Source of the DNA: Gilliamella bombi
GTDB taxonomy: Bacteria > Pseudomonadota > Gammaproteobacteria > Enterobacterales > Orbaceae
Length of the DNA: 64,000 nt
NCBI RefSeq assembly: GCF_900103255.1
Contig: NZ_FMWS01000039.1
Span: forward strand, 1-64,000
Reading direction: 5' to 3'
Below the pieces are notes generated by a model. That model worked only from the letters and a program-made list of their open reading frames with translations. It made no database searches and was not told where the DNA came from. Made by a program: the position numbers and the translations under genes. Each line of letters starts with the position of its first letter. Position 1 is the stretch's first letter. Positions 2,469 through 33,060 of this stretch are shown here, piece by piece.

Positions 2469-3035
2469 TCATCCCAGAATTTTAGCCTTTTGCGCTTGGA
2501 ATTCTTCTTCTGTGATAATGCCCTTTTCTTTTAATGATGCTAGGCGTTCTAATTGTTCGAGTAGGTCATTATTGGTTGCTGGTTGTTGGGCGTGGTTGTT
2601 TGCGCTTTGCTCTTTGCTTTGTTTTAGTGCTTCTATTGCTTGCTTAACCATATTGGTAAACGGTACCACACCTTTTTTTGAGACGTTTTCGACCTTGTAC
2701 GTATGTCCGTCGGCGGCGATCGTGATTTCACCAAATAGTAATTTAGTTTCTCCGCCAACTGATGAAATGTGACTTAAATCTAATGCAACTTGTTTCAATC
2801 CAAAAAACATGCCTTTATCTAAAAATATTACTCGTTGATTAGTTAAAATAATCAACCATGTTTTACCGTCCATGCTTCCCGATGATATACCGATCGGCGT
2901 CTCGTTTGGCATTGCGATTTGCGGAAAGTGTAAAAATTCTTTTTTAGTAAAAAAACCGTCATCATGAGATATTTTTTTTAATCGTTCAAATTCGGCTAAT
3001 AATTCGGCTTTTGTTGCTGTTTTATAATCAATCAT
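2469..3035 (-). CDS. PH (YokE-like) and SHOCT domain protein
   Basis: 188 residues. Residues about 45-135 resemble the bacterial pleckstrin-like YokE domain (IILTNQRVIFLDKGMFFGLK, then ISSV and an ITI strand). The last 30 residues are a SHOCT domain (LEQLERLASLKEKGIITEEEF). A Q/N-rich linker (about 140-155) separates them. A strong GGAAGG ribosome site precedes the ATG at 3035. It lies 22 bp after the third CI-like gene, in the same operon, and shares its SHOCT type of C-terminus. The function is unknown; SHOCT segments are thought to mediate oligomerisation, so contact with the CI-SHOCT proteins is possible. Confidence 0.8.
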   Translation of the reverse strand: MIDYKTATKAELLAEFERLKKISHDDGFFTKKEFLHFPQIAMPNETPIGISSGSMDGKTWLIILTNQRVIFLDKGMFFGLKQVALDLSHISSVGGETKLLFGEITIAADGHTYKVENVSKKGVVPFTNMVKQAIEALKQSKEQSANNHAQQPATNNDLLEQLERLASLKEKGIITEEEFQAQKAKILG

Positions 3036-3489: not shown

Positions 3490-3861
3490 TTAATGAGACC
3501 TCTTAAAAATACTACTCTTCAATAACTGATACTCATCATCAGTAATAGCACCGCTGCTTTTTAGTGCCGCAATTCGTTCTAATTTTTCTAAAGCTTCGCT
3601 TGATAATTCAATCGATTTTTTTTCCGTTTTGATACCATCGATGTTTGGCTCACCCTCGCCCGTACAAAGCCATTTCAGATCTGCGCCAGTATCTAATATG
3701 CATTTAATTACAAAATCAGAGGGAAACGTATTTCTTTGAACTCTGCTACCTATAACGCTGGCCGTCATGTTCCATTTGTCAGCTAATGATTTAACTGTTT
3801 TTAATTTATAAGCTGAGAGGATTCTTTTTATTACGTTTTTACTATTATCAAACTTAATCAT
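3490..3861 (-). CDS. CI-type repressor-like HTH protein with SHOCT-like tail, copy 2
   Basis: 123 residues. Residues 1-70 match the phage CI repressor N-terminal HTH family: FDNSKNVIKRILSAYKLKTV, SVIGSRVQRNTFPSDFVIKC, then CTGEGEPN at the domain end. Residues 72-118 are a SHOCT-like helical pair (LEKLERIAALKSSGAITDDE). Copies share nearly identical tails but differ in the HTH half, so their DNA specificities may differ. It is the middle of three tandem genes. Normal CI repressors carry a RecA-stimulated self-cleaving peptidase here, so SOS induction must work another way. Confidence 0.85.
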   Translation of the reverse strand: MIKFDNSKNVIKRILSAYKLKTVKSLADKWNMTASVIGSRVQRNTFPSDFVIKCILDTGADLKWLCTGEGEPNIDGIKTEKKSIELSSEALEKLERIAALKSSGAITDDEYQLLKSSIFKRSH

Positions 3862-3890
3862 TTATTTTCTTCACTATTCCCCCTTTTTTA

Positions 3891-4256
3891 TTATTTATTA
3901 AAAATACTACTCTTTAATAACTGATACTCATCATCAGTAATAGCACCGCTGCTTTTTAGTGCTGCAATTCGTTCTAGTTTTTCTAATGCTTCGCTCGATA
4001 GTTCAATTGATTTTTTTTCTGTTTTCATACCGTCGATGTTTGGCTCTCCCTCGCCAGTGCAAAGCCATAATAGATTAGCTCCCGTATCTAGTGCGCACTG
4101 TATTATATATTCTGCCGGAGTTGTATTCCGTACTACTCTATTTGAGAGAACGCTAATGCCAACCCCAAAATACTCACACAATGCTTTCATTGTCTTTAAT
4201 CTATAAGCGCTAACCATTCTATCTATTATGTTTTTAGCACTGTCAAACTGAATCAT
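3891..4256 (-). CDS. CI-type repressor-like HTH protein with SHOCT-like tail, copy 3 (operator-proximal)
   Basis: 121 residues, first gene of the lysogeny operon and nearest the operator region 4289-4349, hence the likeliest main repressor. HTH half: FDSAKNIIDRMVSAYRLKTM, VLSNRVVRNTTPAEYIIQCA, LCTGEGEPNIDG. Tail as in copies 1 and 2. The ATG at 4256 has GGGAG six bases upstream; an upstream TTG at 4268 is less likely. Position and divergent orientation to the Cox-like gene match P2 gene C, although the protein family is CI-like and the oligomerisation domain is SHOCT-like. The repressor role is inferred from fold and position. Confidence 0.88.
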   Translation of the reverse strand: MIQFDSAKNIIDRMVSAYRLKTMKALCEYFGVGISVLSNRVVRNTTPAEYIIQCALDTGANLLWLCTGEGEPNIDGMKTEKKSIELSSEALEKLERIAALKSSGAITDDEYQLLKSSIFNK

Positions 4257-4288
4257 GTTAACTCCCAAAATACCAAAAAGAAAAATAA

Positions 4289-5881: not shown

Positions 5882-6697
5882 ATGTGTGTAGAAAAAGCAA
5901 TAAAAATAAAACATCCATTATTACGATATTTTGGTGGCAAGTTTCGACTAGCTCCTTGGATTTTATCGAATTTTCCAATACATGAAATTTATGTAGAGCC
6001 ATTCGGCGGTGCTGGTAGTGTTTTATTACAAAAAGAAAAGATATCACGAGAAGTTTATAACGATATTGATAGTTCTGTTTTCAACTTATTTAAAGTGCTC
6101 CGCAATCAACAATCTGCAGACAAATTAATTAAACTGATTTCGTTAACACCGTTTCACCGCAATGAATATTTAAATGCATGTTATTGCCACTGCTCAGATG
6201 AAATAATTCAAGCTTCGCAGTTAGTAATTCGCTCGTTTATGTCGTTTTCATCAAATGGAATTCATCAAAAAAACTCTGGTTTTAGCGGTAGCACTAAAAA
6301 AGGAAAAACTACAGACGCCACGGTGTGGGCAAATATACCCAATAATTTATCATCAATTGTTCAACGGTTACAGGGTGTAATTATTGAAAACATTCCAGCA
6401 ATTGAACTATTAGATAAACACGATACTCCATCAACTCTATTTTATTGTGATCCGCCATATTTGCACGAAACTAGGACAACAACCAAGGGCTATCAATATG
6501 AAATGTCTTTTTCAGATCATGAAATTTTATTAAACAAAATTATTGGATTATCTGGAAAAGTTGTCATTTCTGGCTATGACAATGAGTTATATAACGACAT
6601 ATTAAATGGCTGGACAAAAAAAGAAGCACAATCAAGAGCGGCGTCACAGCGTGGAGCAATCATAAGAACCGAATGCATTTGGATTAAGGACAAATAA
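5882..6697 (+). CDS. D12-class DNA N6-adenine methyltransferase (first of two)
   Basis: 271 residues. SAM-binding motif I is YFGGKFRLAPWI plus VEPFGGAGSVLL near residues 16-48; the catalytic DPPY is at residues 190-193 in FYCDPPYLHET. This is the Dam-like alpha arrangement. No partner restriction gene is nearby, so it is an orphan phage methyltransferase, probably protecting phage DNA from host restriction. It is distinct from its neighbour, which suggests a different recognition sequence. The stop is directly followed by the next ATG. Confidence 0.9.
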   Translation: MCVEKAIKIKHPLLRYFGGKFRLAPWILSNFPIHEIYVEPFGGAGSVLLQKEKISREVYNDIDSSVFNLFKVLRNQQSADKLIKLISLTPFHRNEYLNACYCHCSDEIIQASQLVIRSFMSFSSNGIHQKNSGFSGSTKKGKTTDATVWANIPNNLSSIVQRLQGVIIENIPAIELLDKHDTPSTLFYCDPPYLHETRTTTKGYQYEMSFSDHEILLNKIIGLSGKVVISGYDNELYNDILNGWTKKEAQSRAASQRGAIIRTECIWIKDK

Positions 6698-7513
6698 ATG
6701 AATATTGAAAAATCTTTCCTGAAATGGCCGGGAGGTAAAGGCCGAATTATAGATAAGTTATTACCCCATTTCCCCAAAGATTGTCAATTCATTGAACCGT
6801 TTGTTGGTGCTGGCAATGTTTTTATTAATGTATCAGCTAAAAGCTATATCTTGGCTGATATTAATCACGATTTAATCAATACATATTCGTGGCTAAAAGA
6901 TGATTTAGCAATGCTATATAACACAACTAAAGAATTATTTGATACAGAAAATGATTTTTACGATATTCGAAGTCAATTCAATCACCCAAAATTCAGGGAA
7001 ACGGTAAAGTTAGCGGCTCAGTTTATCTATCTAAATCGACACGGATTTAATGGGATGTGCCGTTATAACAAAAAGGGGGAATTTAATGTCCCGAAAGGAA
7101 AACATAAAAATATTTATTTTCCGGGTGCGGAAATGATTAATTTTAGTAATAAATTACTTTATTCCGATGTCTCTTTACTCTGCTGTGATTTCACGCAAAC
7201 GATTGGGCTAGCAGGTGCCGGATCGGTTATCTATTGCGATCCGCCATATTTAACTAAACATAAAGATAGCTTTGTTGGGTATACACCGTCAGGTTTTTGC
7301 TACTCAGACACCGAGCTTTTGGCTGACTGTTTGTATGATGCAGTTTTACGGGGAGCAACCGCAATTATTTCAAACTGCGACAATAGCGCCACGCGTGACA
7401 TATTCCACCGTTTTAAACTTCACTCAATAGACGCACCGCGGTCAGTGGCGGCAAACGGCAACCGAAAGCCTGCAAAAGAGATCATTGGCGTGTTAACGCC
7501 GGACATGCTTTAA
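6698..7513 (+). CDS. Dam-type DNA N6-adenine methyltransferase (second of two)
   Basis: 271 residues. FLKWPGGKGRIIDKLLPHF near residues 7-25, FIEPFVGAGNVFIN at about 30-45 and catalytic DPPY at 181-184 (IYCDPPYLTKH). This is closer to canonical Dam than its neighbour: KWPGGK, and a FSNCDNSAT-like C-terminal segment (ISNCDNSATRDIF). GATC is a reasonable guess for the site, not demonstrable here. It starts one base after the upstream stop. Confidence 0.9.
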   Translation: MNIEKSFLKWPGGKGRIIDKLLPHFPKDCQFIEPFVGAGNVFINVSAKSYILADINHDLINTYSWLKDDLAMLYNTTKELFDTENDFYDIRSQFNHPKFRETVKLAAQFIYLNRHGFNGMCRYNKKGEFNVPKGKHKNIYFPGAEMINFSNKLLYSDVSLLCCDFTQTIGLAGAGSVIYCDPPYLTKHKDSFVGYTPSGFCYSDTELLADCLYDAVLRGATAIISNCDNSATRDIFHRFKLHSIDAPRSVAANGNRKPAKEIIGVLTPDML

Positions 7514-10174: not shown

Positions 10175-11002
10175 TTACTTATATTTATCTTTAAGGTTTT
10201 CTGCTCTTTCGTTAGCAATTTTTTTTAGTTTATTTATATCCTCTTTATCTTTTACATGATGCATTTTACGGTGGCAATTAGGACATAATGCAGCTGTATT
10301 TTCAATGGAATCATCACCACCTTTAGATAACCAATCTATATGATGACATTCTAAAAAAGGAATATTATCCTTTACAATAAAAGGACCCAAATTATTACAG
10401 AGATCACATTTACCTTCTGCTTCTCGCTTGATTAGTTCTGAAATGTAAGGGTTTCTAACAAATCGAAAAAAGGAAACAGAATGTCGTTTTTCTACTTTCT
10501 TATTTTTTAATTTAGATTTTGCATATAAAGTTTCCTCATTTAGTATTTCAACCTGCTGTTCTTGCTCTTCTTCTGAAAAAGATGGTTTTGAATTTAGTAA
10601 ATTGCTAAGATCTTCAGGAACAAAAAAACCAGTAAATCTATCAGATAATTTTAATTCAAACTGATCAAGAAAATTTTCAAATTTCTTTTTTAAACAACTG
10701 CAATCTGTTTTTTTAGGATCAATTTGGTCATAAAAATTCAAAAGTCTTCTATTAGTATCACTTCCGCTTCTAAATCTACTATTTTCATTATTCATTTTAA
10801 GAGTATTATCTTCATAGCCAACAAATTTACTGGGACCAAAAAATAAATCATCTTCAATTTTTTCAACAACAAACCACATTCCATGATTTAAAATTTTTTT
10901 TGATTCTTCAACATCTTCCGAAACACTACTATTTAAATACTTATAAAGAGTTAATATATTGTCGATAACTTTATCTCTTCCCGTTACTAAATTATTTGTC
11001 AT
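10175..11002 (-). CDS. HNH endonuclease, candidate defence cargo
   Basis: 275 residues. The C-terminal HNH/zinc module lies at about 205-250: CDLCNN, LECHHIDWLSKGG, then ALCPNCHRKMHH. This is McrA-like. The N-terminal 130 residues (HGMWFVVEKIEDDLFFGPSK, FVGYEDNTLKM) look like a separate recognition domain with no family I can name. It is leftward against its neighbours and AT-rich, placed between the replication gene and the portal gene, the position of tin and old in P2. A modified-DNA restriction or abortive-infection nuclease is plausible but inferred. Its 3' end is two bases from the small SOS gene, so the two are convergent. Confidence 0.82.
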   Translation of the reverse strand: MTNNLVTGRDKVIDNILTLYKYLNSSVSEDVEESKKILNHGMWFVVEKIEDDLFFGPSKFVGYEDNTLKMNNENSRFRSGSDTNRRLLNFYDQIDPKKTDCSCLKKKFENFLDQFELKLSDRFTGFFVPEDLSNLLNSKPSFSEEEQEQQVEILNEETLYAKSKLKNKKVEKRHSVSFFRFVRNPYISELIKREAEGKCDLCNNLGPFIVKDNIPFLECHHIDWLSKGGDDSIENTAALCPNCHRKMHHVKDKEDINKLKKIANERAENLKDKYK

Positions 11003-31076: not shown

Positions 31077-31152
31077 CTATAACATTTTGAATTAAAATAG
31101 AATTATGATAAAATTAATTATAATTTAGTCAATAGCTAAAGAGGTGAAAGTA

Positions 31153-31365
31153 ATGAAGTGTCCCCATTGCCGTTCAAAAACAATAATCCGCACTAGCGAA
31201 GAAATAAGCCCTATAACTCGCAAACAATACAGACAATGCACAAATATTTATTGTTGTCATTCATTTGTTGTTTTGCAGTCTATATCGGCAACAATAGTCC
31301 CAAGTGCAATGCCTGATCCCAATGTAAAAATACCGCTTACAACCAAAAATCATCAAGCAGCATAA
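31153..31365 (+). CDS. ogr: Late gene activator Ogr/Delta
   Basis: 70 residues from ATG 31153, with GAGGTG upstream. Zinc finger CPHC (3-6) and C-x4-C (QCTNIYCCHSF) match Ogr/Delta, with TSEEISPITRKQYRQC between them. It binds TTGT...ACAA sites and contacts RNA polymerase alpha to turn on late genes; the three sites here are its likely targets. It follows the D gene, as in P2. Confidence 0.95.
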   Translation: MKCPHCRSKTIIRTSEEISPITRKQYRQCTNIYCCHSFVVLQSISATIVPSAMPDPNVKIPLTTKNHQAA

Positions 31366-31392
31366 ATAAAAGCGGGGGCGCCCGCTTTTATT
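31365..31392. terminator. Bidirectional terminator between ogr and the SOS small gene
   Basis: AATAAAAGCGGG, loop GGCG, CCCGCTTTTATT: a perfect 12-bp stem with A and T tracts on both sides. It separates two convergent genes, overlapping both stop regions. Confidence 0.93.
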
Positions 31393-31561
31393 AGTTTTCT
31401 TTAATTTCCGAATCATTTCTATTCTTAACCTTCAATAATAATTCATGCAATAAACACAAACCAATTTTTATATCATATTCTGACAGCTCAGCATCAATCA
31501 TTAATCGATTAACAAATTCAGCTTGTTCCAGTTTAATATCATTTTTTGTTATTTCATCCAT
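31391..31561 (-). CDS. LexA-controlled small protein, EQAE family (second copy)
   Basis: 56 residues from ATG 31561 (GGGAG upstream); a longer in-frame start would run through the promoter. KLEQAEFVNRLMIDAELSEY followed by IGLCLLHELLLKVKN aligns with the gene at 10001 and the two C4-linked ORFs. Like the 10001 gene, its -10 box is covered by a LexA box. Proposed SOS-induced antirepressor or host-takeover protein; not demonstrated. Convergent with ogr. Confidence 0.75.
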   Translation of the reverse strand: MDEITKNDIKLEQAEFVNRLMIDAELSEYDIKIGLCLLHELLLKVKNRNDSEIKEN

Positions 31562-31578
31562 CGCCTGCTCCCTTTTTA

Positions 31579-31860: not shown

Positions 31861-32058
31861 ATGGATAATATGAAAATATCAATATTAATAGATGAATCGT
31901 TTGATATAGAAAATTGTGAATCGGGTTATATCGTGGCACTTATGGTAAATGAGTGGTGGGTCTTTTTAAAAAAAGATTCTCTTGATCTAATCGGTGTATT
32001 TGAAACAATTCACGAAGTAAAGAATTTTATATCATCATTGATAATGCCAATTGACTGA
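31861..32058 (+). CDS. Hypothetical small protein
   Basis: 65 residues: ISILIDESFDIENCESGYIV, then VNEWWVFLKKDSLDLIGVFE. Predicted beta-rich and acidic, no family recognised. The ribosome site is weak. It is the only rightward gene in the right-end cargo region. Bases 31624-31860 upstream are AT-rich without another gene, apart from one isolated CACCGCCATT (31761) resembling half an integrase arm site. Confidence 0.5.
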   Translation: MDNMKISILIDESFDIENCESGYIVALMVNEWWVFLKKDSLDLIGVFETIHEVKNFISSLIMPID

Positions 32059-32288: not shown

Positions 32289-32303
32289 GCTTATTTCCTT
32301 GTT

Positions 32304-32321: not shown

Positions 32322-32345
32322 ACGTCCAAACCCGCTAAAATTTGG

Positions 32346-32422
32346 AGGTGAACTAAGCAAGGTTAGCAGACCGCTCTACAAGGAACACGGCGAGCCTTTC
32401 GGCTCCCTCACTTAGCCCACCT
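32346..32422 (-). ncRNA. C4-type antisense RNA, copy A
   Basis: 77 nt on the minus strand. AGGUGGGCUAAGUGAGG (32422-32406) pairs without a break with CCUUGCUUAGUUCACCU (32362-32346), 17 bp including G-U pairs. The GAAA-capped hairpin GAGCC/GGCUC (32405-32392) directly follows the 5' strand. UCUGCUAA (32370-32363) is complementary to UUAGCGGG (32338-32331) downstream, and UCACCUCCAAA (32351-32341) to UUUGGACGUGA (32330-32320) with one mismatch. This is the a'/b' against a''/b'' arrangement of phage P1/P7/P22 c4, and the length matches c4. Confidence 0.82.
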
Positions 32423-32426
32423 AATT

Positions 32427-32624
32427 TTATTCAGATTTTTCAATCACAGAATGCAGCAAATCCGCAATACAGCAAACCATAACCATAAAATCGGAGGGGG
32501 TTGAATGTGTGTTTATACAAGCGCGAGCGATTGTTTCGGCTTGTTCGATTTTTGCGAATTGGTTTAAATGAACGATAACGTTTTCTGATGTGTCGACTGG
32601 TGTAATTTGATTAAAGTTTTTCAT
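32427..32624 (-). CDS. C4-linked small protein B, EQAE family
   Basis: 65 residues from ATG 32624 (AAAGG upstream). The core KIEQAETIARACINTHSTPS then MVCCIADLLHSVIEK is the family pattern. The frame stays open upstream through the C4 RNA to 32756, which may be why such ORFs are sometimes annotated as long Icd-like proteins; I take the short start. It ends five bases before C4 copy A begins, so the two cassettes form one transcript. Confidence 0.7.
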   Translation of the reverse strand: MKNFNQITPVDTSENVIVHLNQFAKIEQAETIARACINTHSTPSDFMVMVCCIADLLHSVIEKSE

Positions 32625-32682
32625 AGTATTTACCTTTGTGTAATAAATTAAGTAAACACCTCCAACAAGGTCAATTATTGGT

Positions 32683-32757
32683 GGTGAACTGAACAAGGTT
32701 GACCTTACCGCCCACAAAGAAAACGGCGCTTCTTTCGAAGCCCTTGCTCGGCCCACC
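32683..32757 (-). ncRNA. C4-type antisense RNA, copy B
   Basis: 75 nt. GGUGGGCCGAGCAAGG (32757-32742) pairs with CCUUGUUCAGUUCACC (32698-32683), 16 positions with one C-A mismatch. The GAAA hairpin GCUUC/GAAGC (32741-32728) follows directly, as in copy A. AAGGUCAA (32706-32699) is perfectly complementary to UUGACCUU (32674-32667) and CACCACC (32686-32680) nearly so to GGAGGUG (32663-32657). Compensatory changes relative to copy A occur at three stem positions. The target sequences differ from copy A, so each RNA should be specific for its own gene. Confidence 0.82.
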
Positions 32758-32787
32758 GTAGAATAGGTATGACTAAGCGCACATAAA

Positions 32788-32806
32788 AATACCGCGCAGA
32801 GCGGTT
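32788..32806 (-). terminator. Terminator-like hairpin upstream of the C4 cassettes
   Basis: On the minus strand ACCGC, loop, GCGGT is followed by ATTTTTATG. It lies between the reconstituted tRNA-Cys and the C4 cassettes and could stop tRNA transcripts from entering them, replacing the host terminator moved to 65-83. The stem is only 5-6 bp. The rest of 32807-33012 holds the right arm site but no gene. Confidence 0.45.
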
Positions 32807-32947
32807 ATGCCCTTTGTGAGTCTCAAGAGGTCAATCTTGGCACTAGATTTTGCTAGCACAAAGCTAATCTATCGAAAGAGCATATCTATGTCAACAATTT
32901 ATTTTGAATATGTAGGAATGGATTATATACGATTATAAAAAAATTTC

Positions 32948-33012: not shown

Positions 33013-33060
33013 ATGGAGGCGCGTCCCGGAGTCGAACCGAGGTAGACGGATTTGCAATCC
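33013..33060. repeat. Right attachment core within tRNA-Cys
   Basis: Forty-eight bases identical to 101-148. Here the repeat continues into the 5' half of the tRNA, so this end keeps a working gene. Confidence 0.95.

Follow-up and report, generated by a model that had tools for sequence, protein, structure and literature searches.

In the textbook example, phages P1 and P7, immunity is set by a single small antisense RNA, and c4 of P1 acts also through the loss of downstream transcription. Weinberg 2010 lists both the c4 antisense RNA and c4-a1b1 (PMC2864571). In Gifsy-1, IsrK acts on the orf45-anrP transcript, with its antirepressor-like gene, and a stable processed RNA was reported there (PMC4825925). 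The role described for IsrK is an activating one that works via alternative structures, unlike the simple P1 scheme, and P4 SeqA is named as a structural homologue (PMC4825925); the main text of that paper mentions neither C4 RNA nor phage P1. The C4 and isrK models are stated to find relatives of P4 CI and seqA (PMC10111431), so for satellites the link of C4 and isrK to P4 CI and seqA is not new. Furthermore, many C4-like sRNAs are described in Acinetobacter (PMC5320573). Among the open-access matches listed, no title or abstract dealt with tandem C4 cassettes or with C4 in P2-like or Gilliamella prophages.

Here we analysed a C4 locus of the bee-gut bacterium Gilliamella bombi. The window is the whole stretch of DNA that was analysed (64,000 nucleotides). 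The original prediction, made from the sequence, placed in it two tandem cassettes of the type attributed to P1, P7, and P22. P22 does not belong in this list, since its ant gene is described as being controlled by sar RNA (PMC13397905).

Prophage setting of the locus

A 20-base sequence of the tRNA-Cys 3' end is repeated at 102-121 and 33014-33033 and flanks the prophage. The following features were placed in and next to it:

33087-33014, minus strand: tRNA-Cys
263-1270: integrase (Pfam match)
3490-3861, minus strand: CI-type HTH gene (Pfam match)
3891-4268, minus strand: second CI-type gene, recognised by similarity
31144-31365: Ogr (Pfam match)

The flanking repeat and the integrase and Ogr matches bore out the predicted P2-like prophage. 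Its head and tail genes presumably correspond to those of P2, whose names we assigned to them from gene order, and the prophage of genome G021 matched the window gene by gene across most of the head and tail region.

Several other genes in the window were observed. The CI-type repressors stand in tandem, two in the window (3490-4268, minus strand) and four in G021 (G021:C44:127974-129455), stacked like C4 cassettes. A short C-terminal stretch of the CI-type genes (SHOCT, a weak Pfam match under the cut-off) resembles the end of a neighbouring 188-aa protein (2469-3035, minus strand), with a likeness of 45-47% over about 33 aa. An HNH endonuclease gene (10175-11002, minus strand) lies where sister prophages have a second C4 locus, and two adjacent 271-aa genes (5882-7513, plus strand), which cross-match, look like paralogous Dam-type DNA methylases.

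Copies A and B belong to the C4 RNA family

Two minus-strand C4-type elements had been predicted at 32340-32760, with an Rfam covariance search as the proposed check. In this search, both copies matched RF01695 (C4) on the minus strand over model positions 1-87 of 87 (32427-32341 and 32763-32677) and scored above the cut-off of 45 bits, which confirmed the prediction. The E values in the whole-window search were 1.1e-11 and 7e-10 for the two copies, which were the sole RF01695 matches genome-wide at E <= 0.001.

32341-32427, minus strand: C4 RNA copy A (RF01695, 70.5 bits), with b' at 32385-32378 and a' at 32370-32363
32677-32763, minus strand: C4 RNA copy B (RF01695, 63.1 bits), with b' at 32720-32713 and a' at 32706-32699

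The long-range stem, predicted at 16-17 bp, was found with 17 of 17 standard pairs in copy A and 15 of 17 in copy B; over 32 distinct full-length C4 copies, 502 of the 544 stem pairs were standard. The predicted hairpin capped by GAAA was likewise seen in both copies. The claim of compensatory stem differences at three positions was only roughly right: one double change does lie in the long stem, together with three one-sided changes and two pairs that are broken in B, and the other three double changes lie in the GAAA hairpin. Copies A and B are members of the C4 antisense RNA family, and this identity is about as good as sequence allows.

Each C4 copy fits its own target

Downstream of each copy, two target segments were located:

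32667-32674, minus strand: a2 of copy B, UUGACCUU, pairing with a' of copy B
32633-32640, minus strand: b2 of copy B, CACAAAGG, located on the ORF B Shine-Dalgarno site
32331-32338, minus strand: a2 of copy A, UUAGCGGG, pairing with a' of copy A
32295-32302, minus strand: b2 of copy A, ACAAGGAA, located on the ORF A Shine-Dalgarno site

Both contacts of the P1 type (a'/a2 and b'/b2) were present for each copy. The a' segment of copy B, AAGGUCAA, forms eight perfect pairs with its a2, and that of copy A, UCUGCUAA, forms eight pairs, two of them G-U; these are the segments that had been predicted to be complementary to a site before the small ORF and to co-vary between the copies. The b' segments, UCUUUGUG in copy B and UUCCUUGU in copy A, are complementary to the b2 at the Shine-Dalgarno site of the respective ORF. 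The prediction had overlooked these b'/b2 pairs, as well as the promoter-like site and the isrK-like leader with a1 and b1 described below.

For the a contacts in the window, the energies were -9.4 and -11.0 kcal/mol with the own partner versus -5.7 and -7.8 kcal/mol with the foreign one, and for the b contacts they were -11.6 and -10.2 versus -6.6 and -8.9 kcal/mol; the own partner thus beat the foreign partner in four of four comparisons. Single contacts were unimpressive on their own: across the four own pairs, between 36 and 273 of 2000 shuffled targets gave an energy at least as low. The a' contact of copy A is weak: its a' pairs better with six other targets than with the one belonging to it, and 16 other C4s fit that target better than the a' of copy A. 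The case beyond chance is therefore made by the covariance score and the own-versus-foreign test over many loci, not by shuffles of single segments.

This test started from 38 C4 places, namely, 25 from 14 of the 35 genus genomes (both window copies among them), 12 on viral contigs, and one in Gifsy-1. Of the 13 viral-contig matches, 12 were used; the excluded one, L032, scored the same as copy A. Because some of the viral contigs and genus genomes share a strain of origin, duplicates were removed, giving 32 distinct places, with incomplete places kept in the count. The own-locus means were -10.0 (a' downstream), -10.7 (b' downstream), -11.8 (a' upstream), and -11.1 kcal/mol (b' upstream), and the minima over 20,000 permutations per contact were, in the same order, -9.2, -9.2, -9.7, and -9.9. 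The own partner was the best of 32 in just 7, 11, 13, and 13 rows, respectively, because the same type occurs at many places. When each of the 13 distinct a'/b' combinations of the P2-type cassettes was represented by a single row, picked by hand, the own-locus mean of the four contacts was attained in 0, 1, 2, and 5 of 100,000 permutations. The own-locus pairing of the C4 contacts is about as good as sequence can make it, and the distinct specificities that had been claimed for the tandem copies agree with both the window energies and this cross-locus test.

Leader RNA, promoter-like site, and operon-like layout

Upstream of copy B, the following features were found:

32866-32894, minus strand: promoter-like site (TTGACA, spacer of 17 nt, TAGATT), located 7 nt upstream of the leader
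32785-32859, minus strand: isrK-like leader RNA (RF01394), with a terminator-like end at 32805-32791
32829-32839, minus strand: a1, CAAGAUUGACC, in the leader; 10 of 11 pairs with a' of copy B
32811-32818, minus strand: b1, CACAAAGG, in the leader; letters identical to b2 of ORF B

The leader scored 49.7 bits (E 4.1e-9) with the isrK model, just below the cut-off of 50, and the next isrK match genome-wide reached 21.7 bits; leaders at the same place in several genus loci scored 50.1 bits and more. What supports the promoter-like site is its placement, as the number of such sites in the region (nine) was not above that in shuffles (mean 9.7) and was not used as evidence. Between ORF B and copy A, the minus strand had no listed promoter-like site, no second copy of the array promoter was found within the window, and the 13-base promoter core had three matches in the window, not above shuffles. 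From 32894 to 32091 on the minus strand, the promoter-like site, leader, C4 B, ORF B, C4 A, and ORF A follow one another in an operon-like manner. The order a1, b1, c4, a2, b2, and small ORF is that annotated in P1, in line with the predicted c4-type architecture of P1 and P7.

The upstream a1 and b1 fit copy B only, and copy A is without a leader of its own. The b' of copy A shows an unexplained fit to the leader at -14.1 kcal/mol (an energy reached by 104 of 2000 shuffles), and the leader is therefore perhaps not B-specific. A universal matching of leader and C4 is contradicted by the viral-contig locus L033, whose leader fits neither of its two C4 copies, and by places without a leader.

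The terminator-like end of the leader also bears on an alternative account, in which the RNAs mainly end transcription, like P4 CI with seqA and seqC, and ORF translation is secondary. The detection of P4 CI and seqA relatives by the same two models (PMC10111431) points the same way, whereas the position of b2 on the Shine-Dalgarno site of both ORFs and the conservation of the ORFs argue for an action on translation. We consider the transcription-ending account rather unlikely.

The small ORFs and their possible role

Three related ORFs were found on the minus strand:

32427-32624, minus strand: ORF B, 65 aa from ATG; an alternative longer GTG start at 32756 would cross C4
32091-32288, minus strand: ORF A, 65 aa, a paralogue of ORF B
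31391-31567, minus strand: ORF C, the third paralogue; it encodes 56 aa when read from the ATG near 31561, and it is not preceded by a C4 match

ORFs A and B aligned as paralogues, as had been claimed. ORF C lies beyond a plus-strand ORF, and the family of ORFs A, B, and C has six invariant residues over 18 aligned sequences. Relatives of ORF A were present in 11 of 60 genomes and in 1 of 26 genera. The pN/pS values were 0.02-0.28 for ORF B (21 pairs of relatives) and 0.16-0.57 for ORF A (three pairs); by this measure, both ORFs are under purifying selection. Between ORF A and ORF C, another 65-aa ORF (31861-32058, plus strand) is 98% identical in G003 and is without a family.

The Pfam, PHROGs, NCBIfam, and structure searches returned no relative of ORFs A, B, and C with a name and no link to known antirepressors. 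No Pfam family, Bro-N included, matched at E <= 10; PHROGs gave only weak matches to families of unknown function (best E 0.014 with the 18 aligned relatives) and one DinI family (0.17), and NCBIfam gave just weak cold-shock matches (0.077). AlphaFold2 predicted ORF B as a helical hairpin (mean pLDDT 76.4, pTM 0.56), and none of its 188 viral and 60 PDB fold matches at E <= 10 reached E <= 0.001. A tblastn search with ORF B against 50,697 phage records gave no match at E <= 10. A distant kinship of ORFs A, B, and C to the small ORFs behind satellite-like C4 was considered and rejected as too weak (hhalign E 0.008, probability 4.9). A one-to-one count of CI-type repressors and ORFs was also considered and was not seen in four prophages, the CI-type repressors within the stretches fetched numbering two in the window, one each in G003 and G008, and four in G021.

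The original prediction had likened the architecture to that of the c4 RNAs, which silence icd and ant. A likeness of the genes themselves was not found: ORFs A and B gave no BLASTP alignment to P1 Icd at E <= 100, and no ant gene follows them, the minus strand up to Ogr holding ORF C alone. A different hint came from two genus loci, L017 and L024, which have a near-identical leader, C4, and target, with a Bro-N gene behind the cassette in L017 and ORF B in L024. This exchange suggests that ORF B occupies an antirepressor slot, and our best guess from the slot is that the 65-aa proteins likely have an antirepressor-type role or are induction factors.

Small ORFs silenced by an RNA would also fit type I toxin-antitoxin or exclusion pairs, in which the 65-aa proteins are harmful and each C4 is an RNA antitoxin, serving prophage retention or cell killing and not repressor control. 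P1 icd is annotated as an inhibitor of cell division, and P4 Kil is reported to kill (PMC10111431). However, the same slot of a near-identical cassette holds Bro-N genes, ORFs A and B are without similarity to Icd, and the predicted ORF B reads as a soluble helical hairpin and not as a membrane peptide. These points make toxin-antitoxin pairs an improbable, though not far-fetched, explanation.

Related cassettes in Gilliamella and beyond

Three of the 35 genus genomes, that of the window among them, have C4 copies no more than 500 bases apart. Order-wide, C4 was present in 60 of 295 genomes (genus included), and copies within 1 kb of each other occurred outside the genus in G140 (arrays of three and two), G312, and G223, from two other families. 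Tandem C4 is thus not unique to the window's prophage. L052, L053, and L051 (G140, G312) carry arrays in which two or three leader-C4 units follow one another at intervals of about 500 bases, and a' and b' differ per unit.

The genus loci were classed by the gene behind C4, sorted by eye. Six have strings of small ORFs (satellite-like), four have a gene encoding 257-268 aa, three of which were shown to have Bro-N, and others have an ORF of the A, B, and C kind. Among the 24 P2-type copies, there were 9 a' cores and 9 b' loops in 13 combinations, with loops as cut by the script (8 if V34 and V37, which were cut at different places, are the same). Two loops accompany the a' core CUGCUAA, and four a' cores share the loop UUUCGUUGAG.

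G003, G008, and G021 have C4 at two sites, one at the tRNA end and the other at a distance of 22-23 kb, where it lies between the replication and portal genes. G003 has the window's ORF B-to-C4 junction, followed by a C4 without an ORF and then by a complete leader-C4-ORF A cassette. This arrangement suggests that the window's second unit probably arose through stacking and the loss of a leader. It also lends itself to the view that cassette stacking left copy A behind as a relic, kept by linkage, and that copy B alone works; the missing leader of copy A and the incomplete C4 copies in L025 and L028 fit this view. On the other hand, copy A outscores copy B, has all of its stem pairs, and keeps both contacts, and ORF A is intact. 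We regard the relic view as quite improbable.

The second C4 of L033 (1247-1329) has no fitting target behind it, and its a' and b' equal those of the complete cassette of L039, a contig with the same source genome number as L033. This is one instance that fits a broader and tentative idea, which we think possible but on the whole unlikely: the C4 cassettes of Gilliamella P2-like prophages may form an exchangeable RNA immunity repertoire of multiple specificities, in which a' and b' are shuffled independently, cassettes are stacked in tandem and at the second site 22-23 kb off, and target-less C4 copies silence the ORFs of co-resident or incoming relatives in trans. If this were true, the window would add a hierarchy, in which the second lock is made only upon readthrough of the first.

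A candidate two-lock C4 immunity operon

The best explanation of the locus, and in our judgment a probable one, is a two-lock C4 immunity operon. From a single promoter, a short terminated leader RNA of the isrK or a1b1 type would be made, and readthrough transcripts would carry C4 B, ORF B, C4 A, and ORF A on one RNA. Each C4 would be excised, and its a' strand and b' loop would bind a2 and b2 of its own ORF around the Shine-Dalgarno site, blocking translation of that ORF in the lysogen. Since a1 and b1 fit copy B, the leader might be bound by C4 B or titrate it, and copy A, with another specificity and no leader of its own, might be a second lock that is reached via readthrough. The 65-aa products would act as antirepressors or induction factors when C4 is absent, as upon entry into a naive cell, or titrated. 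For this operon, we infer transcription, processing, silencing, the order of the locks, and the role of the proteins; silencing and lock order draw on the P1 precedent. Gifsy-1, in which an antirepressor-like gene is under the control of the isrK transcript (PMC4825925), offers an experimental parallel.

C4, its leader, and its specificity rules are already known. What appears to be new here is that a single apparent transcript has two C4 locks whose keys differ and which would act on proteins without a known family, and close relatives carry other C4 pairs. With these natural variants, the rules of RNA immunity become testable, such as which a'/b' differences suffice, whether stacked locks are additive, and whether orphan copies protect in trans.

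Comparison with known systems

The small-protein modules of polylysogens share with our reading of the window a small phage protein that inactivates a repressor, which is inferred for the window; control there is by a transcription factor (PMC10432266), whereas in the window it would be by antisense RNA. The A. baumannii group of C4-like sRNAs resembles the Gilliamella cassettes in that a single genome carries many C4 copies whose a' varies, and matched ORF targets, as in the window, are not part of its description as far as the source covers it (PMC5320573). P4 CI with seqA and seqC, together with related satellites, likewise has an RNA with an upstream and a downstream target, but the P4 system is described as transcription termination inside eta, unlike our reading of the window.

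Gifsy-1 is closer. It has isrK (79.3 bits; 48.1 with c4-a1b1), directly followed by a C4 match (69.0 bits; L031 34131-34214, minus strand) and then by the regulated gene. It differs from the window in having one C4 and an antirepressor-like gene, and in that IsrK is reported as an activator (PMC4825925). The position of the C4 match directly behind isrK suggests that the stable processed RNA reported for Gifsy-1 is probably a C4 RNA. The P1 leader scored 51.0 bits with c4-a1b1 and 35.1 with isrK; this isrK-like score and the C4 after the Gifsy-1 isrK unite loci that go under different names.

The closest likeness is to the c4-icd-ant locus of P1 and P7 (RF01695 C4, RF03163 c4-a1b1), which has a leader with a1 and b1, C4, a2 and b2, and a small ORF in the same order and with similar spacing. 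Unlike P1, which is a plasmid, the window's prophage is P2-like, its ORFs are not Icd-like, and no ant gene follows; where P1 and P7 have a single antisense RNA, it has two keys, with two C4-ORF units behind one leader.
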